Shown here: one piece after another, positions 32,781 through 53,591 of the stretch
Numbering within the stretch: the first letter of the stretch is position 1
How the letters are laid out: each line of letters opens with the position of its first letter
From: a virus
IMG/VR virus record: IMGVR_UViG_3300012924_000007
Coordinates: 18,574 to 82,573 of that record
DNA: 64,000 bases
Reading direction: 5' to 3' (one strand)
The notes under the pieces: model-generated
Told to the model about the DNA's origin: nothing
The model's database searches: none
Seen by the model: the letters and a program-made list of their open reading frames with translations, nothing else
Program-made: the position numbers and the translations under genes

Positions 32781-35700
32781 CTATCTACCTCCTGAACTGG
32801 ACTGTATTTTTATACCTAATTCAGTGGCTAAATCGGAGTTAAATAAAGCCATGTAATAGATAGCTTGGTTAACACCAGGGATATTTTTAAACAGGTATTT
32901 TGCAACTTTCTTATCACCAGCATCTTCATCACCGTTTAACCATAAAAATGTATTCATAGTGGAATTCCATATTACATTTTTTATGTCTGTTAATACAGCT
33001 ATGGATGGGAATATTTTACCACCAATTACATCTTGCCAAGATAGGGGATTATAGAAAAACCCTACTTCATCCTGTAGTTTATCCAGCATTCTCAACCCAT
33101 GTCTAAAATATCCTTTAGTTTGAGGATCTTCTTCATCCTTATCTGGAGCATACACTCGCATGGATATTAGAATACCAGCCATACTCAGCCATACTAACAT
33201 ATCTTTAACAGCAGCATCGAACCCCTTTAAGTACATATCCACAAATTCAGCCTCTGTCATTTTAGTCTCGAATGCTGTCAGATTTTCACCTGTAGATGGA
33301 TCAGTAATCAATTGTCCAGTAACATCAGTTACAAATGCACCTTGTTTCCTGAATGCTTCTACTTTCTGCTGATATATGCGTTTAGCAGTATCAATGAGGT
33401 TATCCTGACCTTGAGAAGCTGTTCCACTAGTATAGTAGGAGAGAAGGGTACTAATGGATTTTAGACCATGATCACGAATAACAGTCCCCATTATCCTCAT
33501 TCTACCATAATCATAAGCATCTTTACCTGAAACATACCTCAAACCTCCAAAACGGGTTGTAACCAATGGAGGAATCCAAGACTTAAACATCATGAGGGAT
33601 TGTCCTACTATAGTCCTATTAATTTGTGAAATATTCTCTGGGGTAGAATTACCAATTGCTTCCCTAGTAAATTGCTGTATTTTATCCCTGAAATCTTTAA
33701 CTGTTTCTGAATTCCTTTCTACACCTTCAAATGAAATATCTTCCCCATCAACCTTTACCAGTTGAATAAGAGATTTAGTACGTTTCCTTTCTGCTATCTT
33801 TGTATTGATATCTTTTTGCAGGGCTTTTCGTTCCTGAGAAGGGACAGATGTATCAAGTACTCTATCGTAGATGTTCTGCTCTTTCACATACTGCTGAATC
33901 CCCACAATTTTACCATCTACTATAGTATGGTTTTCTGCAAAAAATACCATATTGGTATATTGTACTATTTTATCGGCAGTTTTAAGGAATACCATCAATG
34001 AGCCAGAAGTGAGGTATTTTTGAGCTTTATTTATACTCATTTCTCTGGCTTTCTCTCCGGAGATATTATCCACCAATGGCATGAAATACTGTATATTAGC
34101 AGCATACCTCTTCCCTTCATTCCCACCAAATTTACCAGCAGCAAGACGAAATTGAGCTGCTAAATAATTATTTTTTGAGCCGTATGTACCTGCATTAAGA
34201 GCCGCATTTGCAGTACCCCCAAACCAAGCAGAGATACCGGACAGAGGATTTACCCCCATGGCTTTCAACCTGAACCAACGATTCATAGCATCTACAAATT
34301 TCACTACTGAAACCTGTGTCTTCTGTTGATCTGGCATAGGGAGTATTTCAGCCCCCAATACTTTATTAATTGCTTTTGCTATCTTTCCAACTCCAACGGT
34401 CAACCCCATATCTGGCTGATCTGTAGAAAACCTTTTACCATAAATAGTAGCATCAATAAATTCCTTCAGATATTTAGCATTGTTTTGATTGCCAGCTGCA
34501 ATAGCCTCTTCAATAGTTTCTGCCTTAATATTGCCGAACTTATCTGTTTCCAAGTGGTTTTTATTGGACTCTACTAAATGGAGTAGTTTAACCTGGTTCT
34601 CTACCTGAGAAAGATATTTATACTTAATCAGTTCATGATTCCACAGAGTCAATACTCTGAAAATATCATAAGATTTTTCATCAGCGCTTATTTGTGAAGT
34701 GTAATATGCAAATATCTTATCTTTAGGCTGGTGAGTGATGGGGTCAATGTACCCATAAACATCATCTTCTGGATTAAGTTTGAAATTGAAGATATTTTCT
34801 ATCTGGTTCCTAATAGCTGAAGTACCGTCTTCAGTTAAACCAAATGTTAAATTTTCCAAAAATGACTTCCTTACATTAGCAAAGAATGTAGCATGGTAAG
34901 TTTTAAACAAACCAGTTTCATATGCTTCATCATTTTTTGACTTCATGTAGTCGTATAAAGCAAGGATTGGTTCATTCCCTTTCTGTATAAGTTGACTATA
35001 TTGATCACTGTACCAAAGATCTCCTTTAGGGAATCTAAGAAATCTATTGTTTTGATCATTTAAAGCAGTCTCTGGGTGATTCTTAAAGTCATACTCTTTG
35101 GCGAACTTCTCAAGAGGAGTACTTATTAATTCCTCTTTTTCATCACCTTCATAGTCTGCATACTGTTGTTCCAGATATTCTTTAAATGAAGTATAAGATT
35201 TTTCATACTCTTCATTGTACTTAGAAATATCTACATTTTCTTCAACCCATGCCTTATTCCCTGTAGTTAAAGCCTCATTCAAATTTTGATAGAATTCTTT
35301 CTTATACTTGGGAGTAAGTAATCCAGTCTTTTTACCATCTTGTTTCTCAAACAGTAAATCCTGAGCTTTGTCTGTTAAATTTGACTTGTTTAAGTTATCC
35401 TGTAGCTTCTTCAATTTTTTAATCTCTCCCTCAAATTCAAACTCCCTATCCTGCCTAGCTCTGTTTACTATCTTATTTAAGGTTTGGGTAGACGCTGTAC
35501 GAGCATCAGATAAGCTCATGAAGTTCTTCGCTAACCAACGTACATTCTTCTCTTCAAATAATACTCCCTGTACTCCATACCTATTAGCAATAGAGTTAAC
35601 CTGTAGTTTGGAGATATCCACCAAATCTTCTTGGATATTTCTTGCTTTAGCGGAGAGGTTACGTAATTTCTTGTATTCTACAGTATCTGCTGAATATACA

Positions 35701-38700
35701 TCTTTGAATGCTACTCCAAGAGTAGTATACACAGTAAGATCAGTATAAGAATCTACTAATTGTTTGGATACTTCCTCAGTGTTTATTTCTGCTATTGAAT
35801 CAGTATTTCCAGATTGGTATATTGAATTATAACGATCTATTGTTTTTCTGATATTATCTACCTGATTTGAAACAGTTTTTATTAAAGGATTTACGTTACC
35901 CTGTACTTGCAGTACCCTAATGGCAGAAGTAATACTGTTTATCTGTTTCTGTACTTCATATTTTGTACTACTTTCTGTATTATTTTTCTCTAATTCTGAA
36001 AGTATTTCATTTAGTTTATCTATCAAAGTTTTTACTCCTTTTGTAACAGGAGGTTCGACTTCAGAAGGTACTGGAAGTAAGTAACGTTTATTAATTCTTT
36101 CCACGGTAGTATCTCCGATCTCCATATCCTGGAGGGTAAGATCGTTATCTGTACCTCTAGTATATTTAGGGACAATAGGAATTGCTCTACTTAGACCTTG
36201 TTTCTTTAAACCATACTTATCTGAGAGAGTCTTTGATAACCTGGATAACTCTAAATTATATGCCCTTTTGTCATAGTAAGGGACATCAAATCTTTTTTCA
36301 GTATCTACATTCAGAAATTTAAAGTTCAAATCATCATGTGTTCCATCAGGTTTGATTGCTACAAAATCAAGTGTCCCAGCTTCATCATTTTGTTCATCAT
36401 ATACAGTTTGATTAAATAGGAACTGAGTACCTTCAGGATATGATTCAATAGTCTCCTTTAAATACTCCTCTATGGTATCATAGTATTCACTATTGGTAGG
36501 ATCAAGCTGAGAGATGTTTGTTTTATCCAAAGGGGTTATTTCTCCTCCTTCATTTCTCCTAACCCAACCTGTATTACTGTCAATATACCTATCTAAAATA
36601 TCGTAAATATCCTGATGTGCTGCATTGTCATCTGCTAACCTTTTCTTAGAATCCTTTAACTGAGTATCTGAAATTTCCTTATTTGCATGTTTCTCTTTAT
36701 AATAATCATCTACTCTTTGCTGTAAAGTTTTACTTACCGGAGAGCTATCTTTTTTAATGTAGCTAACTTTACCATTCTCTTTAATTACCTTAGTGATACT
36801 ATCAGCTACGGATTTTAATTTATCAAACAGTTTTGTAGACTCCTGGGAAGATGGGATTTTGTAATATAACCCACCATCCTCTATAGTACTACCAGAAAAA
36901 TCCTCTGTACCTTTTAATATTTTAGTAGCTACATTTTCAAAAGGATTGAAGTTTGCAATACTAAAGATAGACTTTATAAATTCCAAAGCTCGTTTCCACC
37001 AAGATTGTGCTTCCGCAATCAATTCTGGCTTTTCAGTACTTTCATTTTTGTAGATTACATATTCAGTAAGGATCTTTGCAACTGCTTCTTTTTGTAGATT
37101 ACTGGGGTTATCGTAAGCAGCTTGATACTCTGGAGATTTTACAACATCATCATAAAGTTTATACTTCTTTGCTTCAGATTTTAATTGATTATAAAGTTCT
37201 GGATTATTGGTAGCAATTAAATCTACTGCAATATGCATCGCTTCTTCAGTCAAAGCTACATTTTCCTTTCCATCAACTACTTGTATCAGATTGTTCACTG
37301 TATCAGCAACTCCTACAGCAGACAGTGAAGTTCCATTTATTTTAATGGACTCCACATGCTCAATTGTTGTACCAACTCTTTTTAAGAATTCTTTAACTTT
37401 GTTTAAAGTATCTTCAGATGAAGTTAATTCTGTATCATATCCTTCAATTTCATACCATAGATTATTTTCTCTAAGAATTTTCTCCTGATCCTTCAATTTC
37501 ATCCCTACAATCTGAGTCTCTGTGTAACCTAATGGTTTCATCCGGTTCATAGTATCTATAAAAGATACATACATAACAGGCTTTTCTTCAGGTTCGTTTA
37601 TTACCTGTACATCTTCTTCAGCAGGTAATTCTTCAGGAATTGATTCATCTAGAGGAGGTGTAACTGGTTCTTCTGATACTTCAGGTTGATCAGTGGTATC
37701 TACAGGTTCAGCTGGAGTGTTGGGAGTAGCTTGTGTACTTATATCTCCAACTATAGTTACGTACTTACTAATAAGAGGTGCTTCCTGGATACCATCTACC
37801 ATTTGAGGAACAATCGTATTAGTAGTTAGGATAGCATTTCTGGTAGTACCATTTACCTTACTCTTTCCCTGGAGATCATAAATAGGGGAGAGGAGGTAAT
37901 GCTGATATGATTTCCATTTTACTGTTTCATATGTATCTCCATTTACAGAAGTAATTTCTGTAAATATACCATCATTATTAACCTGATATGGATTTACATT
38001 TTGCTGTTTTCCGTTAAAGAAATCAATAATATCTTGTTTATTAGCTTCTATATTTTCCTGTACTGGTTGAACTACTAAAGATGTACCTAAATGCAGTTTG
38101 CCAGCCTTATCAAACCATACTTGCTGAGGACGTGGGGCTTTACCTCTTGGGAAGTCAAAATAGATAATCCTTGAAAGATATTTACGCAAAGTAGGATCTA
38201 CTGAAACTGCTCCGGTTGAAGCAAAACTATCCTGGATCTGTTTGGACATTATCCTCAACAGTTCGTACACTTTAGTAGCTTCTTGCTCAGTAAATTTATG
38301 GGAATTTAATTTATAGAAACTCTCTCCAAGTTTTAAATAGGTATCCGAGAGAGGAAATCTGGAAGATAATAGTTTTTTATCAGACAAATCAGACTGTGCA
38401 ATAATCTGAGAATCAACAACGGAATTATTTAAAGGTCTTACACTACCACTTTCATCTCTAATGATATTAGGTATACCAGCACTAACAGTAAAAGAATAAG
38501 GTTGTGCATCCTTTAAAGACAAAAGGTACTTCCTATCCTCTCTAGCTTTCTTTTGAATCTCTTTAATTTGAGCATCAGAAATCTTATTTGGATTGGAAAA
38601 GTTGACTTTGCCTGTATAATCTTTATTCTCACCACCAGTATAAGAAAAATCAGTTGTGGCAAGATAAGTATACACATAAGAGGTGGGATCATTTTCTTCT

Positions 38701-41700
38701 CCTATTTTATTTAATAAATTTCCTTCTTTATCTACTAGACGTAATCCATCAGAGGTTTCATAAGCATAAACAAGGGCTATGGCTGCACGATCTATATTTT
38801 TGTTATTATTTATTTCCTTGCCGTTTACCTCATAGGTTTCTGGTATAAGATGTTTAAGACCTATAGTGTCTTGGTTATTAATTGTTACAGGTATAATACG
38901 CAACTTATCTCTATCTAGTGGGAATGAAGATAGATTTATACGATTAAGAAATTCCTGTTCTCTTTTATGATACTGATTATTTTCTTCTTTTAAAGGAGCG
39001 TAGTAAGAAGCAGGACGAGAAGACTTAAAGTTAATTTCAATAGGCTTACGTGGCTCCTTTGTTACATCTTCAGGTACAGGGAGATCTTCAGGTTTATCAG
39101 TTTCTGACTCTCCACTTATTTCATCCTGTGTTTTGGAAAGTTCGTCAGCTAATTTATCCAATCTCTCCTGTTCTAAACGTTCCTCTTCTAAGAATTGATC
39201 TAACGTTTTACGAAGCTCAACTTGGAGATCGTTTAATAAATTAAGATTATTGGGGAGATCATTTACAGCTTGTACTTTTTCTTCCAAAGTAGAAGTAGGA
39301 TCAGTTAATGTAGGGTTTTGTTGAGGTTGTTTAATGAAGAAATCTTCAATAGTTTTATTTAACCTATTATTTAATTCTGTTTGATTCCTGGTTAAAGGTT
39401 GATCTATGAAATCTTGAGATTGAACCTGTGATAAAGGTACGCTTCTTACACCATTACCTGTAGTGATAGATATTTCATCAAGATAATTTCTACCGAGGAT
39501 TTGTGTACGTGGAGATAATTCAAGTTGATTATTTACTATCTGTATGGGATTACTAGGAGTGTAAGAACGACCTATTTTCAACTCTCTATCCCCAATCTGA
39601 ATAGACTCAACGGGTTCTGAATCTTTCAATTCATTCTTATCCTGGTAGTTAACTGGGTTCTCTCTGATATCTTTGTATTCATCCAGAAATTGCTTTCTCC
39701 TAACTGACATCTCAATAATATCAGCTAAGTTTTGCCTTATTTCATCCTTCGCATCTTGCAGTATAGGGAGAGATTCAATATGAGAAACTGCTTGTTTTAT
39801 TAACTCATCCTTATCTTCCGTGTTATTTACTACAGCTTCTACAATTGGTTGTGTGAGTACACCAGCTGCTAAAACAGTTTGAGAGGCTTGGGGGATACGT
39901 CTGTTATAATCATCTACTTTACCAGATGCATAAATCATCTTATTAATGACATCATCTGTGTAGACCCTATCTCCTCCCTTATTTTTTAATCCAGCATACT
40001 TTATATTCAATGCTTCATACTGGGCCTTGATAGTATTACCAAACTGCTGTAATCTATCTAAATGAGACAATACTTGCGTTTGAGTAGCGTCTTGAGAAAT
40101 TAACCCTTGTGCTTGTAACTGCTTTAAACCCTCATCTGTAGAAGCTATTTGTTTAAATTGACCTATATCATTTAAGAATAATTCATATTTCCCATACTGA
40201 ATACGTGGAGTAAGATAGTTTATTAATTCGTCTGTCTCCAAGTCTTTTGACTGAAGTATATCTCCACCTTTTATAGCCTCTACTCTCTGTTGTTCTAAAT
40301 TATCATGCCTATTTACTGAATCATTTGCAGATTTAAGGAAAGATCCTAAATATGTAGAGTTGAAAGCCTGTACAGCTGATTCAGTATTTGCAGCGCGTTC
40401 TTTACGAGATTTGAAATTACCTCTTATCTCAGAGATAGCTCCAGACAATCCACCTATCAATATTTGTTCAATACCATCCTTAGTAGTGAGTGTCTGTTTT
40501 GTACCATATCCAAATAAGTCATTTAAAACATCAGCACTCCCTTCTTTATTCTTTTTATTCCAATAATTTTCAGTACCTACAGAAATGACATTTTGAGCAC
40601 CTTCTTCAAATGCTTCAGATGGAGAAAAGAAGTATTCTCCCAAAGATGAAATTCTACCAAATTTAGTAGTTGCTTTTGCACTTTTGTAAAATTGATCTTT
40701 TGCTGTCCTCCCTAAAGTATTTAAAGTTTCACCAGCCTCATTTTTCAATGAAATGTCTTCTATATTATTTATAGCGTTTACAAACTCCCTTTTCTCAAGG
40801 TTGTATGAAGAACCCATTATTTTAGGGAGCTGTACATAGTTTGTAAGGGAGAGGAGGGCTGTATTTAATAGGAATGTAGTATTTCCAACTTGATCAACTT
40901 GCTTGTTAATGGCATCTAAATCGATTCCTGTGGGGAGTTGACCATTTGTGTTGTAATAATTATCTATTAATTTCTGCCTGAACTGATTTGCATTTTGAAG
41001 TGCTTCCATACCAGCTTCTCCGGTAGTCATCAGACCAGCATACATTGCTCTCTGAGTAGTATTCAGAAGATTATAGTTAGCTGCAAACTTGTTACCTATA
41101 TTTGCAAATGCTCCTTCTAAAGCCCCTATTTTATTTGTATTCGCAACTGAGGCAATAGCATTTTCTGACGCAATTGAAGCATCAACTAACGCACCTGCGG
41201 CTGATAATTTTGATACACTTCCTAATAAAGTGAAAGCCTTCGCCCATCCAGCACCTGAAATATAAGCACCTGCTGCATACCCTAAATTCTTTATTACTTT
41301 ATCGAACAAAAAATTAGCAGAAAGGAAATTTGTAGGGGAATACCAATTGGCAGATTGTTCAGCATGAGTATAATAGTTAGGGAACTGGTTCTCCATTTGC
41401 TGATTCCACTTATCTAATCCTTGACTGAATTCATTATTGTAGAATGATGAGAATTTCCCATCTTCCAGCCATTTACCTACACCATATACTGCCCCTACAG
41501 TTCCCTGTAATGCTGTAGAAGTCGCTAAACCAAGACCTTTAGTAATAGCATTGCCAGCCTTGAAATACCAGGGCTGTGACTGAGCTGCTAATTCTTCATT
41601 GCTTAAGAAAGGAGAATAGGTAGGAAATCTACCATTTGTGGGGAGTTCTGAATATGAAACTCTGGGACCATTGGTAGGAGATAGTTTACTGGCTGATTTA

Positions 41701-41876
41701 TTAGCTTGGTTTATTAATTGAGCACCTAAACTTGATGACTGTTGTGGCCTCGTAGGATCATTCTCATTTGTAGGGATAGGTGTAAATGCAGTTGGTTGAC
41801 TTCCTATTTGAGGGAAATCACTTAAAGTATCTTCTGGTGTGCTACTCTGTTGTAATAATTGCTTATCTACCAGCAT
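32781..41876 (-). CDS. Giant virion/ejection protein (3031 aa), polyvalent type
   Basis: I know no single family name. The size and place (after muzzle, protease and transglycosylase genes) suit a protein packaged in the capsid and delivered with DNA. Near 1545 a zincin-like motif reads EEAMH, its first His replaced by Glu. Near 1834-1852 a nuclease-like core, GTLDFVAIKPDGTHDDLNFK, has Asn-Phe-Lys instead of Asp/Glu-x-Lys, then a YDKRAYNLELSRL helix; both sites look degenerate. Two Pro/Glu-rich linkers (about 940-985 and 1405-1460) mark domain borders. The C-terminal 550 residues include FKSWIPPLVTTRFGG near 2760 and hydrophobic stretches that could insert in membranes. No DxDxD polymerase motif is seen. 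It overlaps the previous gene by 14 bases. Confidence 0.7.
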   Translation of the reverse strand: MLVDKQLLQQSSTPEDTLSDFPQIGSQPTAFTPIPTNENDPTRPQQSSSLGAQLINQANKSASKLSPTNGPRVSYSELPTNGRFPTYSPFLSNEELAAQSQPWYFKAGNAITKGLGLATSTALQGTVGAVYGVGKWLEDGKFSSFYNNEFSQGLDKWNQQMENQFPNYYTHAEQSANWYSPTNFLSANFLFDKVIKNLGYAAGAYISGAGWAKAFTLLGSVSKLSAAGALVDASIASENAIASVANTNKIGALEGAFANIGNKFAANYNLLNTTQRAMYAGLMTTGEAGMEALQNANQFRQKLIDNYYNTNGQLPTGIDLDAINKQVDQVGNTTFLLNTALLSLTNYVQLPKIMGSSYNLEKREFVNAINNIEDISLKNEAGETLNTLGRTAKDQFYKSAKATTKFGRISSLGEYFFSPSEAFEEGAQNVISVGTENYWNKKNKEGSADVLNDLFGYGTKQTLTTKDGIEQILIGGLSGAISEIRGNFKSRKERAANTESAVQAFNSTYLGSFLKSANDSVNRHDNLEQQRVEAIKGGDILQSKDLETDELINYLTPRIQYGKYELFLNDIGQFKQIASTDEGLKQLQAQGLISQDATQTQVLSHLDRLQQFGNTIKAQYEALNIKYAGLKNKGGDRVYTDDVINKMIYASGKVDDYNRRIPQASQTVLAAGVLTQPIVEAVVNNTEDKDELIKQAVSHIESLPILQDAKDEIRQNLADIIEMSVRRKQFLDEYKDIRENPVNYQDKNELKDSEPVESIQIGDRELKIGRSYTPSNPIQIVNNQLELSPRTQILGRNYLDEISITTGNGVRSVPLSQVQSQDFIDQPLTRNQTELNNRLNKTIEDFFIKQPQQNPTLTDPTSTLEEKVQAVNDLPNNLNLLNDLQVELRKTLDQFLEEERLEQERLDKLADELSKTQDEISGESETDKPEDLPVPEDVTKEPRKPIEINFKSSRPASYYAPLKEENNQYHKREQEFLNRINLSSFPLDRDKLRIIPVTINNQDTIGLKHLIPETYEVNGKEINNNKNIDRAAIALVYAYETSDGLRLVDKEGNLLNKIGEENDPTSYVYTYLATTDFSYTGGENKDYTGKVNFSNPNKISDAQIKEIQKKAREDRKYLLSLKDAQPYSFTVSAGIPNIIRDESGSVRPLNNSVVDSQIIAQSDLSDKKLLSSRFPLSDTYLKLGESFYKLNSHKFTEQEATKVYELLRIMSKQIQDSFASTGAVSVDPTLRKYLSRIIYFDFPRGKAPRPQQVWFDKAGKLHLGTSLVVQPVQENIEANKQDIIDFFNGKQQNVNPYQVNNDGIFTEITSVNGDTYETVKWKSYQHYLLSPIYDLQGKSKVNGTTRNAILTTNTIVPQMVDGIQEAPLISKYVTIVGDISTQATPNTPAEPVDTTDQPEVSEEPVTPPLDESIPEELPAEEDVQVINEPEEKPVMYVSFIDTMNRMKPLGYTETQIVGMKLKDQEKILRENNLWYEIEGYDTELTSSEDTLNKVKEFLKRVGTTIEHVESIKINGTSLSAVGVADTVNNLIQVVDGKENVALTEEAMHIAVDLIATNNPELYNQLKSEAKKYKLYDDVVKSPEYQAAYDNPSNLQKEAVAKILTEYVIYKNESTEKPELIAEAQSWWKRALEFIKSIFSIANFNPFENVATKILKGTEDFSGSTIEDGGLYYKIPSSQESTKLFDKLKSVADSITKVIKENGKVSYIKKDSSPVSKTLQQRVDDYYKEKHANKEISDTQLKDSKKRLADDNAAHQDIYDILDRYIDSNTGWVRRNEGGEITPLDKTNISQLDPTNSEYYDTIEEYLKETIESYPEGTQFLFNQTVYDEQNDEAGTLDFVAIKPDGTHDDLNFKFLNVDTEKRFDVPYYDKRAYNLELSRLSKTLSDKYGLKKQGLSRAIPIVPKYTRGTDNDLTLQDMEIGDTTVERINKRYLLPVPSEVEPPVTKGVKTLIDKLNEILSELEKNNTESSTKYEVQKQINSITSAIRVLQVQGNVNPLIKTVSNQVDNIRKTIDRYNSIYQSGNTDSIAEINTEEVSKQLVDSYTDLTVYTTLGVAFKDVYSADTVEYKKLRNLSAKARNIQEDLVDISKLQVNSIANRYGVQGVLFEEKNVRWLAKNFMSLSDARTASTQTLNKIVNRARQDREFEFEGEIKKLKKLQDNLNKSNLTDKAQDLLFEKQDGKKTGLLTPKYKKEFYQNLNEALTTGNKAWVEENVDISKYNEEYEKSYTSFKEYLEQQYADYEGDEKEELISTPLEKFAKEYDFKNHPETALNDQNNRFLRFPKGDLWYSDQYSQLIQKGNEPILALYDYMKSKNDEAYETGLFKTYHATFFANVRKSFLENLTFGLTEDGTSAIRNQIENIFNFKLNPEDDVYGYIDPITHQPKDKIFAYYTSQISADEKSYDIFRVLTLWNHELIKYKYLSQVENQVKLLHLVESNKNHLETDKFGNIKAETIEEAIAAGNQNNAKYLKEFIDATIYGKRFSTDQPDMGLTVGVGKIAKAINKVLGAEILPMPDQQKTQVSVVKFVDAMNRWFRLKAMGVNPLSGISAWFGGTANAALNAGTYGSKNNYLAAQFRLAAGKFGGNEGKRYAANIQYFMPLVDNISGEKAREMSINKAQKYLTSGSLMVFLKTADKIVQYTNMVFFAENHTIVDGKIVGIQQYVKEQNIYDRVLDTSVPSQERKALQKDINTKIAERKRTKSLIQLVKVDGEDISFEGVERNSETVKDFRDKIQQFTREAIGNSTPENISQINRTIVGQSLMMFKSWIPPLVTTRFGGLRYVSGKDAYDYGRMRIMGTVIRDHGLKSISTLLSYYTSGTASQGQDNLIDTAKRIYQQKVEAFRKQGAFVTDVTGQLITDPSTGENLTAFETKMTEAEFVDMYLKGFDAAVKDMLVWLSMAGILISMRVYAPDKDEEDPQTKGYFRHGLRMLDKLQDEVGFFYNPLSWQDVIGGKIFPSIAVLTDIKNVIWNSTMNTFLWLNGDEDAGDKKVAKYLFKNIPGVNQAIYYMALFNSDLATELGIKIQSSSGGR

Positions 41877-44636: not shown

Positions 44637-46589
44637 TTAACCAAAGGGCTTTCTAGCAGCTCTCCTTTGATTAGTATTATAATTTAGGATATCTTGATTT
44701 GTTTTTAATTGTGAGGGTGTAGTTACTGAAGTTCTAACGGGATTACCGTTCTTATCGTAAGTTGTTTTACTTGTTTGATTACTATTACCAATTGGGAGGC
44801 CGTTAGCTGTGAATACTGCATCTGGACCCATATAATTAAGATTTAAGTTCTCATCTGGTCTGTAATTAAACATATTTTCATACAATCTGATACTGTTGTT
44901 TTCAGCTCTATTTTGTAATGATTTATTTGCTATTGAACCTACTGCTCCTCTGATGTTTGCTCTGGTATTTGCATCAGCCTGGGCTTGTCGTACTGCTTGT
45001 TGATCATCAAATTGAAGATTCTGTAATTCTGCCTGATTTAAGAGAGTTACATTCTTATTGGTAATATCATTGGATATACCCTGATTGGTCCTGAATTGAT
45101 TAGCTAGTACTTCAGAGTCAGCATTATACTTCTGTGCAGCTAAAGTACCAAGAGCTGAAGGATTACTACTACCCGCTTGTCTTGCAACGGCTGAAAATGT
45201 AGCCTGATTTTGATTCAGCTGATCCTGGAATGATACCTGGTATGGAGTGTATAAAGTAGGGGTATAATTTAAGCTGGGTACTGCTTGCCTTCTTTCAGTT
45301 GCTAAAGTAAGTAACTCTGGAGCAATTTGACCAAGGGATAACTTATTCTGATCAGCTAAAGAAGGAAGTCTTTTTTTATTAGGGATATCTAAATCTCCCA
45401 TTGGCGCAGTCGGATAATTGCCCGTTATATCAGGTTGAGATGTATTATTACTAGGAACAGTAGGAAAGGGTAATTTTTCATCTGGAGCAGGGACAGTTGG
45501 CTTTAATCTAGGTGCTGTTACGTCAACAGTTGGAAGAGTATTCCCAATTACTTTACCAATATACTGGTTCAACGTTTCTTGAGCTGTTGGATCTTGAGAT
45601 GTTCCAATTGGGCTATCCCAAGTAATTTGTCGATTTCCTACCTTTGCTTTTCCTGTTTTAATTAACTGATCGGTTGCCCCTTCACCAATTCTATGCGCAG
45701 CAGCTATATAGGTTGGGTTTTCTCCATATTTCTTCTTCAAATCTGAAATGTGGGAATTCATCACATCTTCCTGCAAATTATTTGTATTATTTTTAAAGGC
45801 GCTATCAAATGCTTCAAAAGATTTATACTGGTTTTTAAAATGCTTATTATAAACTCCTTCTCTAGTACCTTTTAAAAATTGATATTTACCATATGCGGAA
45901 GAAAGTAACTTACCTTCTTTGTTTTTAGGAATTGCATTATAATTCCCTCCGGATTCAACTCCAGCTAAACGTTGCTTGATTAATTTAGTAAACGGATCTT
46001 CATCTGAGTTAATATCACCGCCTTCAGCAAAGTTCATCTTCTTCCCCCATTTAGCTTTATCTGAATTCTGTATTGATTGTAACATAACGTTCTGAAGTGC
46101 TGCCAGCTGTTCTTTTTGTGCTGCTAATTCCATTTGCTTATTCTTAGCATGATTCCCCATTACCGTTCCAGAATTAAATGCTAATTGTTCATACCTATTA
46201 TATGGATCATTACTATTAATAAGCGCGGTGGATTTATCTAATATTTTAGAATACTTATCCTCCTCTTTGGCTATGTCCTTTGCAACCGCTTTGAAAGTTT
46301 TATTCATAGTGGGAACACGTAATTTCCCAAAAATCTGCAAAGCTCCTTGTTGATCTGTGAAAAACGGTTCATTTCCTTCCACTTCGGCTTGCTTGTTTCC
46401 ATAGGCTATATCGATCCCGCCTTGATTGTGAGAATTACCCTGGAAAATTCCCATCCCACCATCAATAGGATTATCTGATAAGTTACCTGCAACTCCACCA
46501 TTTAATACCTCTAAACCATTTGCTGCTTTAGGGAGAGATTTTATTCTAACTTGTTTAAGAGGAACTTTATTTATTTTTACTTTTGGCAT
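44637..46589 (-). CDS. Virion protein with lytic transglycosylase domain (650 aa)
   Basis: Residues about 200-330 form a lysozyme-like transglycosylase domain: RLAGVESGGNY with Glu212 as likely catalytic residue, SSAYGKYQFLKGT, then YIAAAHRIGEGA. This cuts peptidoglycan, presumably for DNA entry. The N-terminus has Gly-rich HNQGGIDIAYGNKQAEVEGN, a pattern I associate with Bacteroidota phage virion proteins, and FAEGGDI just before the enzyme domain. The Pro-rich middle (about 350-390) is a linker; the Gln-rich C-terminus is helical. It could also be the only lysis muramidase of this window. Confidence 0.75.
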   Translation of the reverse strand: MPKVKINKVPLKQVRIKSLPKAANGLEVLNGGVAGNLSDNPIDGGMGIFQGNSHNQGGIDIAYGNKQAEVEGNEPFFTDQQGALQIFGKLRVPTMNKTFKAVAKDIAKEEDKYSKILDKSTALINSNDPYNRYEQLAFNSGTVMGNHAKNKQMELAAQKEQLAALQNVMLQSIQNSDKAKWGKKMNFAEGGDINSDEDPFTKLIKQRLAGVESGGNYNAIPKNKEGKLLSSAYGKYQFLKGTREGVYNKHFKNQYKSFEAFDSAFKNNTNNLQEDVMNSHISDLKKKYGENPTYIAAAHRIGEGATDQLIKTGKAKVGNRQITWDSPIGTSQDPTAQETLNQYIGKVIGNTLPTVDVTAPRLKPTVPAPDEKLPFPTVPSNNTSQPDITGNYPTAPMGDLDIPNKKRLPSLADQNKLSLGQIAPELLTLATERRQAVPSLNYTPTLYTPYQVSFQDQLNQNQATFSAVARQAGSSNPSALGTLAAQKYNADSEVLANQFRTNQGISNDITNKNVTLLNQAELQNLQFDDQQAVRQAQADANTRANIRGAVGSIANKSLQNRAENNSIRLYENMFNYRPDENLNLNYMGPDAVFTANGLPIGNSNQTSKTTYDKNGNPVRTSVTTPSQLKTNQDILNYNTNQRRAARKPFG

Positions 46590-46590
46590 A

Positions 46591-48921
46591 TTAACTAATT
46601 ATATCAAAGCTGTAACCGGATTCTGAAAGTAAATTAATTTCTTCCGGGGTTAAATTGTAAGTCTCCCCTAACATATATCCACCATTAGCCATTTTACTCT
46701 CTTTTGAAGAAACTTTACCACCGTTCTTGTATATTGCACTACTGCCTGTCCCATAGGGATTTGGATTATAAGTTTCCCGATTGAACTGCCTATTTATTCT
46801 CCTTGCTTGATTATCATTGAAATTCTTCTGTTGCGCCATTTGTCCAGTTAAACCTGCTAATGCTAATATTGGTCCAGCTGTGTTAAATTTTATTCTAGGT
46901 AAACTTCCTTTAATTGCTTTTGCTACATTTAATCCTTTACTTGAGCCTTTTTCTGAACTTTGTGGTTCATAATTACTTTGAGATACTTGATCTGTATTTG
47001 CATCTAATAAATACTCCGGCTGATCGAAGGCCGGACCATCCAAAGAAGCATCATTGGGGATCATATTACTTTGCTCTGTGGCAAAATAATTGTTAACATT
47101 TGCTGATGCTTGATTCAATGGAGATCCTACGGGTTTATATGGTAAATACGGAGTATCATTCTGTAGCTCACTTGATACTGCATATGGATTATAACCTTGA
47201 ATATTTGAATCAATTGGTCCACCATAAGCATGTTTTACCTTATGAGAATTTCCATTGATAGAAATCTTTTGATTACCGGGAGTAGATTCAGCTAAACCTT
47301 TTGCGTGTATATATCCAATCCATCGGTTATAGGCTGGTTTTGAAGAGAAATTTAAAGATCCTCCATTTTTGGCAATCATAGTAGTATTATTATTTTCATT
47401 ATTGTAAGCAATATTGTTCATTATATCAATGATATCTTTATCAGAAAAGTTCTTCAGTAGCCTTTGTGAATTATAAGTATTTTTAATATTCTTATTACCT
47501 CTTGCCTTTTCTAATAATTTTGGTGTAAGATCTTGGTTACCGGAATCATATATCCCCTCTTTTTTAAGTATGTATCTAAATGCATCAACATCACTTTTAT
47601 TTTCAGATGGTGATAAATTATGATCAAGTAGACCTAATATATGACTTACGGATTGTCCTTGTTCAGAGGCTAACCTTTGAGCTTTTAATAACAACCCTTC
47701 ATCAACTCCTTTATTTCTACTTCCTATATATTTTTCTTCATCTTTACTGAGTCTTAAATTAGCAGGGGCTGTTATTATTCCTTTATTGGGGTCATTTTCA
47801 TTTCTTATATATTCATTAGTATAATTAACAGCATGACCCAATTCATGTGAAAGAATATCATCTCTTGTTGTTGATAACTTTTTAACTTGTTTGTTATCTA
47901 TAAATACCATATTGTCCCCAGGATCATAATAAGATCCTATCTCTCCCTTAGAATCCGGATGTGTAATAACTGTATTCTGTATCCTTTGTCTCCTATCTCT
48001 AATAGTTCCATTCACATCATTGTATCCAGATTTTCCTAGCCTTTCTTTATACTTTGGAGAGTTTATATAATCCGTATACCAGTTTCTTACGGCTTCGTCG
48101 GGGTTATATAGTCTTGAAAGTTCATCATTTGAAAATGAAGGATTTTTAAGGCTATTTTTATTAGGAGATACATATTTTGAAATTTTTCCTCCATCAGCTG
48201 CATAAGTTGTTTCTGCTGATTGTTGATTTGATGCAACCTTATTCATTACATCAATTAAATTATTATCTTGATAATTATCAAACAATCTTTTTGTAGAGAG
48301 GGACTTATTGATTACTGGATTTTGTTTTGCTTTTTGAAGTATTTCTGGTGTGATATCTTGTGTACCAGCATCATATATCCCTTGCTGATTTAATAAATAT
48401 CTGAATGTATCTATATCACTCTTATTTTCAGTAGGATAGAAGTCATGAAGGGAGGGTCTGATTTTCATATACCTTGAAATCCCCATCTCTTCTCTTTGTG
48501 CATCTCCGGTTATATCCTTCTTTGTGCCAGGATCAAGATTTGATCTATTAAATATGAAAGACTCTTCTTTGGGAGATAAACCCAAGGCTGGATTAGTTTC
48601 ATTTGAGTTAATAGCATGACCTAGTTCGTGTGCAACTACCTCTTGTCTATTAAGCGCTTTTAAGGCTATTTCAGTTGGAGATATATTTAAAGTGTTATCT
48701 TCTGAAGAATATTGAAGAGTACTCCCTGGTACTTCTTGAACCTGTGTTCCTTCAATACGTTTGGAACGTTGACCTTGAACATAATCTGGATACTGGTAGA
48801 AGTTGGATAGTCTTTCCTTATACTTTGGGGATTGGACATACCCCTGCATCCATTTTTTAACAGCTGCATCTTTAGGATTAATCTTTCCTCCATCTGGCAT
48901 TTTCTTTTTACTTGTTGCCAT
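46591..48921 (-). CDS. Virion protein with two tandem zinc metallopeptidase domains (776 aa)
   Basis: Two copies of an approximately 240-residue unit: each has SPKYKERL near its start, a HELGHA zinc motif (His98-Glu-Leu-Gly-His102 and His359-Glu-Leu-Gly-His363), then ENKSD with a likely third ligand, a TFRYLL/AFRYIL helix, GIYD, and an LIDVMN/IIDIMN end. Both HExxH sites are intact, so both may be active. The C-terminal third is Asn-rich with NGG motifs. The gene lies between the muzzle-like and transglycosylase genes. It may mature virion proteins or act on the host envelope during entry; the unit family is not one I can name. Confidence 0.75.
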   Translation of the reverse strand: MATSKKKMPDGGKINPKDAAVKKWMQGYVQSPKYKERLSNFYQYPDYVQGQRSKRIEGTQVQEVPGSTLQYSSEDNTLNISPTEIALKALNRQEVVAHELGHAINSNETNPALGLSPKEESFIFNRSNLDPGTKKDITGDAQREEMGISRYMKIRPSLHDFYPTENKSDIDTFRYLLNQQGIYDAGTQDITPEILQKAKQNPVINKSLSTKRLFDNYQDNNLIDVMNKVASNQQSAETTYAADGGKISKYVSPNKNSLKNPSFSNDELSRLYNPDEAVRNWYTDYINSPKYKERLGKSGYNDVNGTIRDRRQRIQNTVITHPDSKGEIGSYYDPGDNMVFIDNKQVKKLSTTRDDILSHELGHAVNYTNEYIRNENDPNKGIITAPANLRLSKDEEKYIGSRNKGVDEGLLLKAQRLASEQGQSVSHILGLLDHNLSPSENKSDVDAFRYILKKEGIYDSGNQDLTPKLLEKARGNKNIKNTYNSQRLLKNFSDKDIIDIMNNIAYNNENNNTTMIAKNGGSLNFSSKPAYNRWIGYIHAKGLAESTPGNQKISINGNSHKVKHAYGGPIDSNIQGYNPYAVSSELQNDTPYLPYKPVGSPLNQASANVNNYFATEQSNMIPNDASLDGPAFDQPEYLLDANTDQVSQSNYEPQSSEKGSSKGLNVAKAIKGSLPRIKFNTAGPILALAGLTGQMAQQKNFNDNQARRINRQFNRETYNPNPYGTGSSAIYKNGGKVSSKESKMANGGYMLGETYNLTPEEINLLSESGYSFDIIS

Positions 48922-51900
48922 TATGTAAATGAGGTTTGGGTTTGTACCAAATTAAAATGTGTAATTAATTTGTAGTTATCTTGATTATCAAGAATATGAC
49001 GAACTTTTAAATCTTTCCCCATTATCTTAGCTTTTGCAAAATCCTTCTTACCATAATCCAGATTTGAGGAATTCAATTCCTTATTTGTAAGTGAGAAGTC
49101 GCAAGATTTTAAATAGATAGGTTGATCATTGTTTTTCACTATATCCCAGAATGTATTATAGTTAAAATAATTCTTCACTTTTGTAACCAAAATATCTTTT
49201 GATATGGAGTTATATTTGGGGTACTTCAATTTTTGAGAGAGGTTATTCCTATCATTAGGTACAAGATTCAATAATCCAGTACACTGTTGCCCATTATCAA
49301 TAATGGCTTTATTAAAATAGATAGTTTTATCAGGTTCTGTATAAGTATAAAAATCTGTATACTTTAAAGCCGTAGTGTAATCCTTCACATACTGCAATAT
49401 TTGATCATTAGGATTCTCAAAGAAGTAAGGGTGTTCTATAATGTATGGGTATATTTTACCATAGAAATTATTGAACTTATTGTAAACCGTGTTATGACTC
49501 CAAATACTACCATCTGAATTTAATCCGGATTGGAAATAGGTAGGTTGGGAAATATAATAATTGGGTTGATATGAATGGAAACTTACCCAGTTGTTTATCC
49601 CTGGGATAAATGAATAAGAAAGCGTCCAAGATCGGTTGCAGAAAAGAGTTGAATCTTGCAATGAAACTTCTGTACCATCAAGAGTGAACTTAGAATCAAT
49701 ATATTTAATTTCAGTATTAAGTGGTTCATAATCTAGTTTGGTTATTAATATTCGTTTATACTTGGCATCATAGGTTCCATGTAAACCCAACCCTTTGAAA
49801 TTGTTATCAATATCTACAGTTGGAAAATAGTTTGTAATTTTGAAGGGGAGATATTCTTGAAACCAGTTATCCGTATACTGATTTGATAAGGTATCTATTG
49901 TATTCCCTTTTAATATAAATATTTGACCTCTTTTTGCATCAATAGTGATATGACCAAATTCGGTTTTAATAAAGAACTTATGCTGAGATCCTGCAAATCC
50001 TAAATCTGTTTCTGCAAAATCCAATGGAGGAGAGGATTTAAAGAACTGGTCATTACCTAAATATGCTGTTAATGTAGATGTATTAACAGTAGAGAGTGCA
50101 TTATATATAAGGGATTTATTCTCAAACCTTGCGAGTACTTGTCTATTCTCAAATCCATTTAAGGCTGCCAGAGGACCATACTCTTTGGGGAAATCAAAAA
50201 AAGAAACTGGTCTATAAACTAACCAATTGTTTTTCGTTTCTTCCAGGGTTGATTTATCAGAGTAAATAGCCCTATTAGGAAATTCAAACAAGCAAGTTTT
50301 AGAAGGATCATAATCTTCTCTGAGATGTGTGAAAACATTTTCTTTATTCTGCTTTGAATATGTTTGGTTATAAGTATAACTATTATCAAGTAATATAGGG
50401 ACATTTACTTCTTGTAACCAATCATCGGGGATATCAGTAGCGACATTTGGGAAGAAATTACCTTCTTTTGAGTTGGTGGCTTGCCTGTAATCAACATTCA
50501 CTTCAGACTCACAGAAAAAATATGGAATCCCATATGCAAACAAATATACCTTCCCTTCTTCAGTTAAATTCTTAGGAGAAGCTGGACAATCGAGATTTAC
50601 ATTTGCTACACCTAATGATTCTACGTATGCTTTTAATATTGTTGTGAATATCATCAGTCCGGAAGTAAGAGGTCTTACTCCACCACTTAGAATATTTATT
50701 ATAATAGTCCCAGCACTTGTATCGATAATATTATTTATATATCCCTGAAGATTACTAAAATCAACATCGGTGTCAATTTTACTAGTGCTGTAGTAAAACG
50801 TTGGATAGCCTACGGTTGGAATTTGATCCAGACTTATATCGTATTCATTATCTTTTTTAACAGTACTCGCCAGAAAAAAGGAATGCTTTCTTTTTAACCC
50901 GATTCTATTTATAAAACAATCTCCACCAAATATAGTAGGAACTGATTTTAGTTTTGCTCCTTTTTCATCATAAAGAGGAGTTAGGAAACCAGTATCTACA
51001 ACTTCGTATGAAAATATCCTTCCGTATTGGTCTGGCACATATCTCTTAATTGCTCCATAAAATGAACTAATATTCCTTTCTATAACTGTTTCGGGAGAAT
51101 CACAAGTTGATGAATCAGATAATATATATCTTGAGTTATCTTCAGGAATTAGATAGGTATCAACTTCATGTGGGAAAGGGAACGTTTCTGATGTTTTTAA
51201 GTAGACAGAACTTTCTCTGAATTTATTGTTTACTTGGTAAATATCATTTACTGATTGTACTCCTTCAATTAAATATCTTCCAGTTTCTATTGGTCTATTC
51301 TTTATACCTTGCTCATTGGGTACTGGTAGAGAATTATTATAATTCCCTATTGAATTGTACTGATATCCATAATTTTTAGCCTGTGCTATATCTTTAAGTA
51401 TCTGAAGACTGGCTGTAAAAACTGATGCTATGGGACCAATATCCACAGTAACCGATGGTGCTATTCCTAAAAAACCCCCACCTGAATCCAGGTTTAACGC
51501 AGACGACAAACCAAGTGCATAAGCAATAAATAATGATTGAGAAGTTAAGAACTTGTATTTTGCATTATCCTGTACTTCTATAAAATGAGATCTGGTTTTG
51601 CCATATTCAACTGTCTCTAATTTCAAATATCCTGAATCAACAAAATTAGGTTGATAGAAATGGGTATCTGGACTATGGAAAGTAAATCGTTGTTTACTAT
51701 CTTCAGTATTAAATCCATCTAATCGTTTATCGCTGTTATTACCACTATGATTTGATACTTTGGTATTAGATATAAAAACATCCGGATTTAAATCATTGTA
51801 TGGGTAGTTGGGGTAGAGGTAGGTTTGTTCGTTTTTTTCATATTTACCCACATTATATAACAATCCTTTCGCTACTACAGATTTATTATTAGCTCTGTTT

Positions 51901-53591
51901 GCTCTAACAATTTTAAACCCTGCAATCCTTCCTCTTTGTTCTTCGGTCAAATCCGACTCTTCTATTGCTCTATATAAGGAAGGAAGGTCTATTTTTATAC
52001 CTATTGGATATATAGAATGTATAAAATTAGGATCATTATTTATGTTATTGTCATGTATAGGAGATACTGCACAGTCCGGGAATTTAAAGTGTCTGATTGG
52101 TTTTCCGGCCAATGCTCCCCATATTAAAGGATTATTAGGATAGGGGTCTTGGGATTCCCAGTAAGCAAATTCTCCATATTCATATGGACCAACGTAACAA
52201 TCATTACCTTGACCTGATAAAAGGTATTGCTCTGAATACCCTGTACGAGATGCGGTATTGTAAACCTTCCATCTAACAGTTGGTTGGGGATCTTCGCAGG
52301 GGTTTCTTTTTATTGCTGCTGCATCTAGGTTCTGTATGGAGATAATCTCTGTATCATAAGAAGTGGATTTTCTTCCTACGAGAGGAAATGACATACTTTC
52401 ACTTCCATCAGTGTGAGTAATAATTGCCTCTAATGCATATACTTCATCTCTAAAATGTCCTTTTATATTAGCAGTATTGACTCCGTTATTGTACGCTTCA
52501 AACTCATTATATGGTATTTTCCAAGTCTCCCAGACAAATTTTACTTTACTCCAGATTGACTGATAAATATCTTTTTTTCTAGAGGTCAGCCCATAAAAAA
52601 TAAGAGAATTATCTGCGGAAGTAACACCAGCTGCAATATCGTAGTAAGGGAATTTCTCAAATAAATCTGCTATTGCGAGGTTGATTTGTGTTTTGGTATT
52701 CCCAGTATAGTTATATGAAAAAGTTCTTGCAGTAATGGGGAAGGTTCCAACTAGCTTTGGTGTGGGGATTAAATTTATTGTTTCAAGAACTACTAAATTG
52801 AAATGATCATACAGACCAGAAGTATCTATATTATCAATATTAACATTAATAGATTTACTAGTAGTTTCATTAAAATTTGGAGTGATTTTATTATCTTTAA
52901 TAGATACTCCATTAGTATTTGAATAAAATGAAGTGGCTCCTTCCCCCAAAGCATTTGAATATTGGAAGAAGAATTGATAAGTTCCATAAATCAAGGAACC
53001 ACCAATATCTACAGAAATTGGTTTTATTACAGGAACTGTGAACTTAGGTTGTACAAGTAATTTATTACAATCTACTACACCTTCAATTTTAATTCTTTTG
53101 AAATCATTATTAGGGTCAATTTCTTCTTTCCAGGGAAGATCGTTCAAGTCTATGAATCTCCTATCATTATTTGCATCTGTCCAATATACTTGAGTAGAAC
53201 AATTTGTAGTCTTTACTTCAATGGTCTTTATTGGAAAGTTTCTATCAAATCCTAAACACGGAGAGGAAATGTATGTATTATAAGTACACATTCCGTCATT
53301 TACATAACCTATTTCACAAGCTCCTGTTAATGGATTGACAACCCAATATAATGTTTGCTTTATTTCATAAATGGGTTTTACACCAATGACTTTAAATCCT
53401 GCTGGCAGATAAGCACAGATTACATTAGCTCCTTCATTTTGAATAGCTACTTGTTTCCCATCAAAATTCTCAATCACGGAATTTAATGAGAATGAAGTAA
53501 ACCCTTTCTTAATCTGAGAAGGTATTGAAACAAGGTCCATCCCACCTACAGGTTGAGATATACTATTATTTATATTTTGCTCTTGGGCCAT
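48921..53591 (-). CDS. Tail muzzle/stabilisation-like protein (1556 aa)
   Basis: A very long beta-rich protein. The start (GGMDLVSIPSQIKKGFTSFS then LNSVIENFDGKQVAIQNEGA) resembles the opening of crAss-like muzzle (P22 gp10-type stabilisation) proteins that close the tail tip. The body is rich in Tyr, Asn and Pro with repeated beta-propeller-like strands (about 1180-1300). No enzymatic motif. It follows the ring-protein gene, whose TAA overlaps its ATG (TAATG), as in crAss-like genomes. Assignment is by order and N-terminal resemblance. Confidence 0.65.
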   Translation of the reverse strand: MAQEQNINNSISQPVGGMDLVSIPSQIKKGFTSFSLNSVIENFDGKQVAIQNEGANVICAYLPAGFKVIGVKPIYEIKQTLYWVVNPLTGACEIGYVNDGMCTYNTYISSPCLGFDRNFPIKTIEVKTTNCSTQVYWTDANNDRRFIDLNDLPWKEEIDPNNDFKRIKIEGVVDCNKLLVQPKFTVPVIKPISVDIGGSLIYGTYQFFFQYSNALGEGATSFYSNTNGVSIKDNKITPNFNETTSKSINVNIDNIDTSGLYDHFNLVVLETINLIPTPKLVGTFPITARTFSYNYTGNTKTQINLAIADLFEKFPYYDIAAGVTSADNSLIFYGLTSRKKDIYQSIWSKVKFVWETWKIPYNEFEAYNNGVNTANIKGHFRDEVYALEAIITHTDGSESMSFPLVGRKSTSYDTEIISIQNLDAAAIKRNPCEDPQPTVRWKVYNTASRTGYSEQYLLSGQGNDCYVGPYEYGEFAYWESQDPYPNNPLIWGALAGKPIRHFKFPDCAVSPIHDNNINNDPNFIHSIYPIGIKIDLPSLYRAIEESDLTEEQRGRIAGFKIVRANRANNKSVVAKGLLYNVGKYEKNEQTYLYPNYPYNDLNPDVFISNTKVSNHSGNNSDKRLDGFNTEDSKQRFTFHSPDTHFYQPNFVDSGYLKLETVEYGKTRSHFIEVQDNAKYKFLTSQSLFIAYALGLSSALNLDSGGGFLGIAPSVTVDIGPIASVFTASLQILKDIAQAKNYGYQYNSIGNYNNSLPVPNEQGIKNRPIETGRYLIEGVQSVNDIYQVNNKFRESSVYLKTSETFPFPHEVDTYLIPEDNSRYILSDSSTCDSPETVIERNISSFYGAIKRYVPDQYGRIFSYEVVDTGFLTPLYDEKGAKLKSVPTIFGGDCFINRIGLKRKHSFFLASTVKKDNEYDISLDQIPTVGYPTFYYSTSKIDTDVDFSNLQGYINNIIDTSAGTIIINILSGGVRPLTSGLMIFTTILKAYVESLGVANVNLDCPASPKNLTEEGKVYLFAYGIPYFFCESEVNVDYRQATNSKEGNFFPNVATDIPDDWLQEVNVPILLDNSYTYNQTYSKQNKENVFTHLREDYDPSKTCLFEFPNRAIYSDKSTLEETKNNWLVYRPVSFFDFPKEYGPLAALNGFENRQVLARFENKSLIYNALSTVNTSTLTAYLGNDQFFKSSPPLDFAETDLGFAGSQHKFFIKTEFGHITIDAKRGQIFILKGNTIDTLSNQYTDNWFQEYLPFKITNYFPTVDIDNNFKGLGLHGTYDAKYKRILITKLDYEPLNTEIKYIDSKFTLDGTEVSLQDSTLFCNRSWTLSYSFIPGINNWVSFHSYQPNYYISQPTYFQSGLNSDGSIWSHNTVYNKFNNFYGKIYPYIIEHPYFFENPNDQILQYVKDYTTALKYTDFYTYTEPDKTIYFNKAIIDNGQQCTGLLNLVPNDRNNLSQKLKYPKYNSISKDILVTKVKNYFNYNTFWDIVKNNDQPIYLKSCDFSLTNKELNSSNLDYGKKDFAKAKIMGKDLKVRHILDNQDNYKLITHFNLVQTQTSFT

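Follow-up and report, generated by a model that had tools for sequence, protein, structure and literature searches.

The window analyzed here is a stretch of 64,000 nt that forms part of an 82.6-kb IMG/VR record of an uncultured phage, a relative of the large podoviruses of Bacteroidota. One open reading frame on its minus strand, at 46591-48921, encodes a 776-aa protein with two zincin units, flanked by a muzzle-like gene and a cargo-like gene. The features of the locus are listed below, with the evidence for each in parentheses.

48921..53591, minus strand: muzzle-like virion protein of 1556 aa, directly upstream in reading direction (PHROG 37948, E 1e-141)
46591..48921, minus strand: two-zincin protein whose linkers and C-terminal tail are predicted to be disordered (open reading frame, self-alignment, full-length AlphaFold model)
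48202..48882, minus strand: zincin unit 1, aa 14-240 (self-alignment, 17-unit alignment)
48616..48630, minus strand: HELGH of unit 1, aa 98-102 (HExxH invariant in 17 units)
48415..48429, minus strand: ENKSD of unit 1, aa 165-169, with Glu as the predicted third zinc ligand (Glu invariant in 17 units)
48106..48231, minus strand: predicted disordered linker between the units, containing AADGGKI at aa 241-247 (motif counts, AlphaFold)
47386..48108, minus strand: zincin unit 2, aa 272-512 (self-alignment, 17-unit alignment, AlphaFold pLDDT 85.4 and pTM 0.86)
47833..47847, minus strand: HELGH of unit 2, aa 359-363 (motif, 17-unit alignment)
47590..47604, minus strand: ENKSD of unit 2, aa 440-444, with Glu as the predicted third zinc ligand (motif, 17-unit alignment)
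46681..47406, minus strand: predicted disordered C-terminal region, aa 506-747, with more A-x-GG motifs (motif counts, AlphaFold)
44637..46589, minus strand: cargo-like protein of 650 aa, directly downstream in reading direction (C-terminal half conserved in loci L007, L013, L014, and L015)
45555..46007, minus strand: transglycosylase-family match, aa 195-345 of the 650-aa protein (PHROG 4067, E 7.3e-9; Pfam SLT only 0.049)

A sequence-only reading of this DNA had described one protein with two similar units, each possessing an intact HELGH, ENKSD, and GIYD. All of these motifs were located, with GIYD at aa 181 in unit 1 and aa 456 in unit 2. In a self-alignment, the two units are 34-36% identical over ~250 residues (E about 1e-41 to 1e-43), a similarity that is far beyond chance. 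The span given in that reading, 47820-48640, covers both HELGH motifs but misses the ENKSD and GIYD of unit 2; the two units jointly occupy about 47386-48882.

Across 17 aligned units from the window and from viral contigs, with members down to 19% identity to the query, the HExxH motif, the downstream Glu (the E of ENKSD), one Arg, and one Asn are invariant, and both copies in the 776-aa protein therefore look catalytic. Each unit carries the gluzincin signature of HExxH plus a downstream Glu as the predicted third zinc ligand. AlphaFold predicts a matching fold for unit 2 from the 17-unit alignment, with three short strands, an HExxH helix (88-99, numbering of the model), and a later Glu helix (173-189), which ENKSD starts. 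Foldseek against the PDB returned zinc peptidases or metal-dependent hydrolases as the first 15 matches to this model, led by M13 PepO and neprilysin, and zinc-peptidase folds as the first 22 matches to the full-length model. The predicted structure supports a zincin fold, though by matches that are individually weak, with none under E 0.001 for either model. Against predicted viral structures, the best matches are structural proteins of phages phi4:1 (2.5e-12) and phi14:2 (6e-8), followed by crAss-like proteins. In the full-length model, aa 16-228 and 273-505 are folded and aa 231-272 and 506-747 are disordered, resembling beads on a string. The pTM of this model is 0.41, so the placement of the two units relative to one another is meaningless.

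The Pfam family Zn_peptidase_2 (PF04298) scores 40.8 bits, above its cut-off of 27, but the match covers only profile positions 47-108 of 218. Because the alignment is confined to the surroundings of HELGH, the protein was kept out of this family. Matches to Pfam M4, M12B, M78, SprT, and eCIS_core fall under their cut-offs. Searches of Pfam, PHROG, and NCBIfam found no further domain in the chain, and a search by sequence gave no solved structure.

The sequence-only reading had called the units tandem duplicated. They are homologous, but a recent duplication in place is rejected. In a tree of 12 units from which long branches were left out, unit 1 groups with the stand-alone units of L004, L005, and L006 (support 100/98). 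A sister relationship of units 1 and 2 fails the AU test even in its best tree (p-AU 0.0008). Judged from these sequences, the two units have different closest kin; either the second unit was accreted, or an old duplication was followed by losses. The proteins of phi14:2 and phi4:1 are 80% identical in unit 1 and 50% identical over the whole shared region, an unevenness that also points to module exchange.

Scanning viral contigs with the full-length protein found no relative, and searching them with the zincin profile A1 found 18 loci. In bacterial and archaeal genomes, two scans for exact peptide patterns turned up no relative. The slot just behind the muzzle gene is common to this family in many uncultured phages. 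It is occupied by a zincin protein in L007, L013, L014, L015, phi17:2, and phi14:2, and in L004 a single stand-alone unit follows a muzzle-like gene. Between phages, the protein differs in having one, two, or three units. In L015, one unit is clear and a second is weaker (1.5e-4). Three candidates are seen in L014, among them one with HExxxH, a zincin variant described by Iyer et al. 2017 (PMC5512222); L014 also gives an NlpC/P60 match below threshold (0.012). In very long chains, some relatives contain other domains as well. With the zincin profile, three phages that have related muzzles gave no match, nor did the crAss001 genome; the profile matched 9 of 10 records in the search that covered crAss001. 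In cr114_1 (Suoliviridae), a zincin-like gene lies between the portal and the major capsid protein (L045:6413-7315); its HExxH is complete only if an in-frame TAG is decoded as an amino acid. A repeated domain close to G.W.P.NWG..V.I.S..ITM.GV....GISDTGDTK.M.PG is found beside the zincin units in L007, L009, L013, L014, and L015.

The protein had been placed between a muzzle and a transglycosylase, and this arrangement holds. The muzzle-like protein matches virion proteins of phi4:1 and phi17:2 and the annotated muzzle of csAssE-Sib, and the gene that follows the zincin gene encodes the transglycosylase-like domain. By BLAST, the order muzzle, zincin protein, cargo-like protein, 909-aa-like protein, and giant protein is kept in L007, L013, L014, and L015, and phi17:2 matches the same block except for the 650-aa protein. 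When the 650-aa protein was compared with the cargo protein C1 of PhicrAss001, the hhalign probability was a non-significant 8%. A 3031-aa protein in the same block (32781-41876) has the look of giant cargo, and conservation of its N-terminal part extends to L007, L009, L014, L015, and phi17:2.

The closest described relatives come from Cellulophaga phages: phi4:1 gp041 and phi17:2 gp042 (PHROG 24249, 'tail protein') and phi14:2 g070 (Crassvirales, Steigviridae). Like the window protein, those of phi4:1 and phi17:2 follow a homologous muzzle and possess two zincin units, and g070, also with two units, adjoins the muzzle gene of a classified crassvirus. Both gp041 and g070, which belong to cultured phages, are annotated from virion MS/MS; the earlier statement that the window protein is a virion protein stands for these homologues and would extend to the window phage by homology.

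The relatives differ from the window protein in what their units are fused to. The phi4:1/phi17:2 protein has an N-terminal Phage_lysozyme2 domain (E 9e-32), which a Pfam search did not find in the window protein, and its unit 1 is of a distant subtype (HEFTH ... ELYPR). A phmmer search of the PDB with phi17:2 gp042 gave no match. L009 joins Phage_lysozyme2 (4e-27) to one zincin unit, and its lysozyme matches phi29 gp13 at 3.6e-6. The phi14:2 g070 protein, which has no zincin family annotation, possesses the motifs HEFTH and HEFIH and an N-terminal domain of the C1 portal-bound type. C1 (gp45) of PhicrAss001 has residues 425-552 bound at the portal and residues 214-245 inside the tail barrel, and ejection with the N terminus first is expected by the authors (PMC10172136). 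Residues 419-552 of gp45 match residues 216-352 of the L011 protein at 1.7e-10, and residues 11-220 of the latter are a zincin unit. The N-terminal domain of g070 matches the C1 homologue of cr108_1 (1e-12), which the gp45 domain also matches (9e-32). Two lineages thus carry zincin units on C1-type proteins, as the portal-bound domain is fused in both L011 and g070. The window protein resembles gp45 in its slot after the muzzle and in its A-x-GG motif. It differs in that gp45 has no HExxH and the window protein has no match to the portal-bound domain.

The A-x-GG motif is a feature of the linkers. The form A.{1,2}GG, chosen after inspection, is found 5 times in the 776-aa protein against 0.48 expected, 12 times in gp45 against 2.7, and 8 times in the L011 protein against 1.2. 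Muzzles and C2 lack it. For plain GG dipeptides, the 776-aa protein shows no enrichment (6 against 3.8 expected, p 0.14). Its GG motifs fall within stretches predicted to be disordered or on their borders, and in the phi4:1/phi17:2 protein such motifs separate the two zincin units. The motif thus recurs in linkers of zincin cargo and C1-type proteins (gp45, L041:17988-20516; L011:7935-11051) and could mark a site of processing, mediate binding, or reflect a habit of such linkers.

With moderate confidence, the 776-aa protein is considered an ejected virion cargo or tail-lumen protein whose two zinc-peptidase units would act in the host envelope. Packaged in the virion, it would be ejected when infection starts, into the envelope and ahead of the DNA. 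There, the zincin units would act next to a co-travelling lysozyme or transglycosylase and open a peptide or protein barrier, either the cross-links of peptidoglycan or a protein of the periplasm or outer membrane. Because the sister proteins are virion parts and have as fusion partners domains that cut walls or belong to ejected cargo, the protein most likely enters the envelope before the DNA and helps to cut the way in. The computed homology of the units, the conserved zincin motifs, the slot after the muzzle, the fusion partners, and the MS/MS annotation of two homologues support such an entry role, as do the transglycosylase domain of the next gene, the likeness of the L009 lysozyme to phi29 gp13, and the C1 domain of relatives, C1 being partly in the tail barrel of PhicrAss001 and expected to leave first. 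The accessory distribution of the zincin, with no profile match in crAss001 or in three phages whose muzzles are related, would fit a host-specific entry factor. Against this stand the window protein itself, which lacks both the lysozyme and the C1 domain, the PDB fold matches, none of which reaches E 0.001, and the enriched linker motif, which is also compatible with processing.

The main rival, possible but doubtful, is that the zincin units process cargo in cis or in trans, cutting A-x-GG linkers between modules before packaging, in the head, or after ejection. Enrichment of the motif in three cargo proteins, its absence from muzzles and C2, and its position in or bordering predicted disorder would fit such cutting, as would the related cr114_1 gene between portal and major capsid protein. 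Autoprocessing has been proposed for domains of this kind, with phage P1 DdrB as a precedent (Iyer et al. 2017, PMC5512222), but the N4 virion RNA polymerase, which bears such a domain, is packaged uncut (PMC5512222). Moreover, crAss001 gp45 has the motif in a genome with no zincin-profile match, phages with related muzzles gave no match to that profile either, and the form of the motif was picked after inspection. The sequence-only reading had suggested either a maturation protease or an entry enzyme acting on the Bacteroidota envelope; with no zincin of this family found in crAss001 and these phages, maturation is the weaker half, and entry is the likely one.

It is improbable that the units are injected effectors directed against host or defence proteins in the host cytoplasm. 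This role was proposed for the zincins of polyvalent proteins (Iyer et al. 2017, PMC5512222), and some relatives do carry other domains in very long chains, but where profiles identified a fusion partner, the domain was wall-cutting or portal-bound, not nucleic-acid or defence-related. That the units are structural beads with no catalytic role is very improbable, since spacers would lose the HExxH and Glu that are invariant in 17 units down to 19% identity, even if the predicted beads-on-a-string layout with long disordered linkers and the variation from one to three units would suit them.

The zincin-like metallopeptidase (MPTase) domains of polyvalent proteins, among them P1 DdrB and the N4 virion RNA polymerase (PMC5512222), are a precedent for such an arrangement. 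They too possess HExxH and a downstream Glu in one to several copies. Between one and five zincin domains are present in about 36% of polyvalent proteins, of which about 8% have more than one (Iyer et al. 2017, PMC5512222). Several proteases in one virion protein had been called unusual; tandem zincins are indeed unusual, but they have this precedent. Polyvalent proteins are delivered with the genome, and for the window family the corresponding evidence is the virion MS/MS annotation of the homologues gp041 and g070. Unlike polyvalent proteins, the 776-aa chain has no unrelated enzymatic domain, which is found only in the lysozyme-bearing relatives, and its family is linked to the muzzle, C1, and lysozyme.

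In layout, the relatives resemble phi29 gp13, a tail-knob enzyme composed of a lysozyme and an M23 zinc endopeptidase, in that the same lysozyme type and a zinc peptidase are joined in one virion protein. However, the gp13 peptidase is M23 and not an HExxH zincin, and the window protein has no lysozyme. A broader proposal, offered tentatively and at low confidence, is that this gluzincin family, specific to viruses, serves large Bacteroidota podoviruses as an exchangeable entry module. Its units would be shuffled as ones, twos, and threes into muzzle-adjacent cargo, paired diverged sites would cut two different envelope substrates, and their role would be that of the M23 endopeptidase in phi29 gp13.

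What is new is a zincin family in the muzzle slot that is tied to C1 and to a tail lysozyme; tandem zincins themselves have precedent. The text of the PhicrAss001 structural paper does not mention a protease or peptidase (PMC10172136), and a literature search, with subscription journals mostly outside its coverage, found no report of zincins in crassvirus cargo. For the passage of protein and DNA of crassvirus-type phages through the Bacteroidota envelope, this family is a concrete enzyme candidate.

Among named phages, the muzzle closest to that of the window (36% identity) belongs to Leptolyngbya phage Lbo-JY46 (L047). Its 674-aa protein (L047:15365-17389) has no zincin, and the C terminus of that protein, GGYNLGEEIDLSPEEVAKLIELGYDFEVV, resembles that of the 776-aa protein (46591-46690), GGYMLGETYNLTPEEINLLSESGYSFDIIS. 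The G.W.P.NWG-type domain adjoins a transglycosylase-like stretch in Lbo-JY46 (L047:13878-15365). This phage was deposited as infecting the cyanobacterium Leptolyngbya; the real host may be a Bacteroidota companion.
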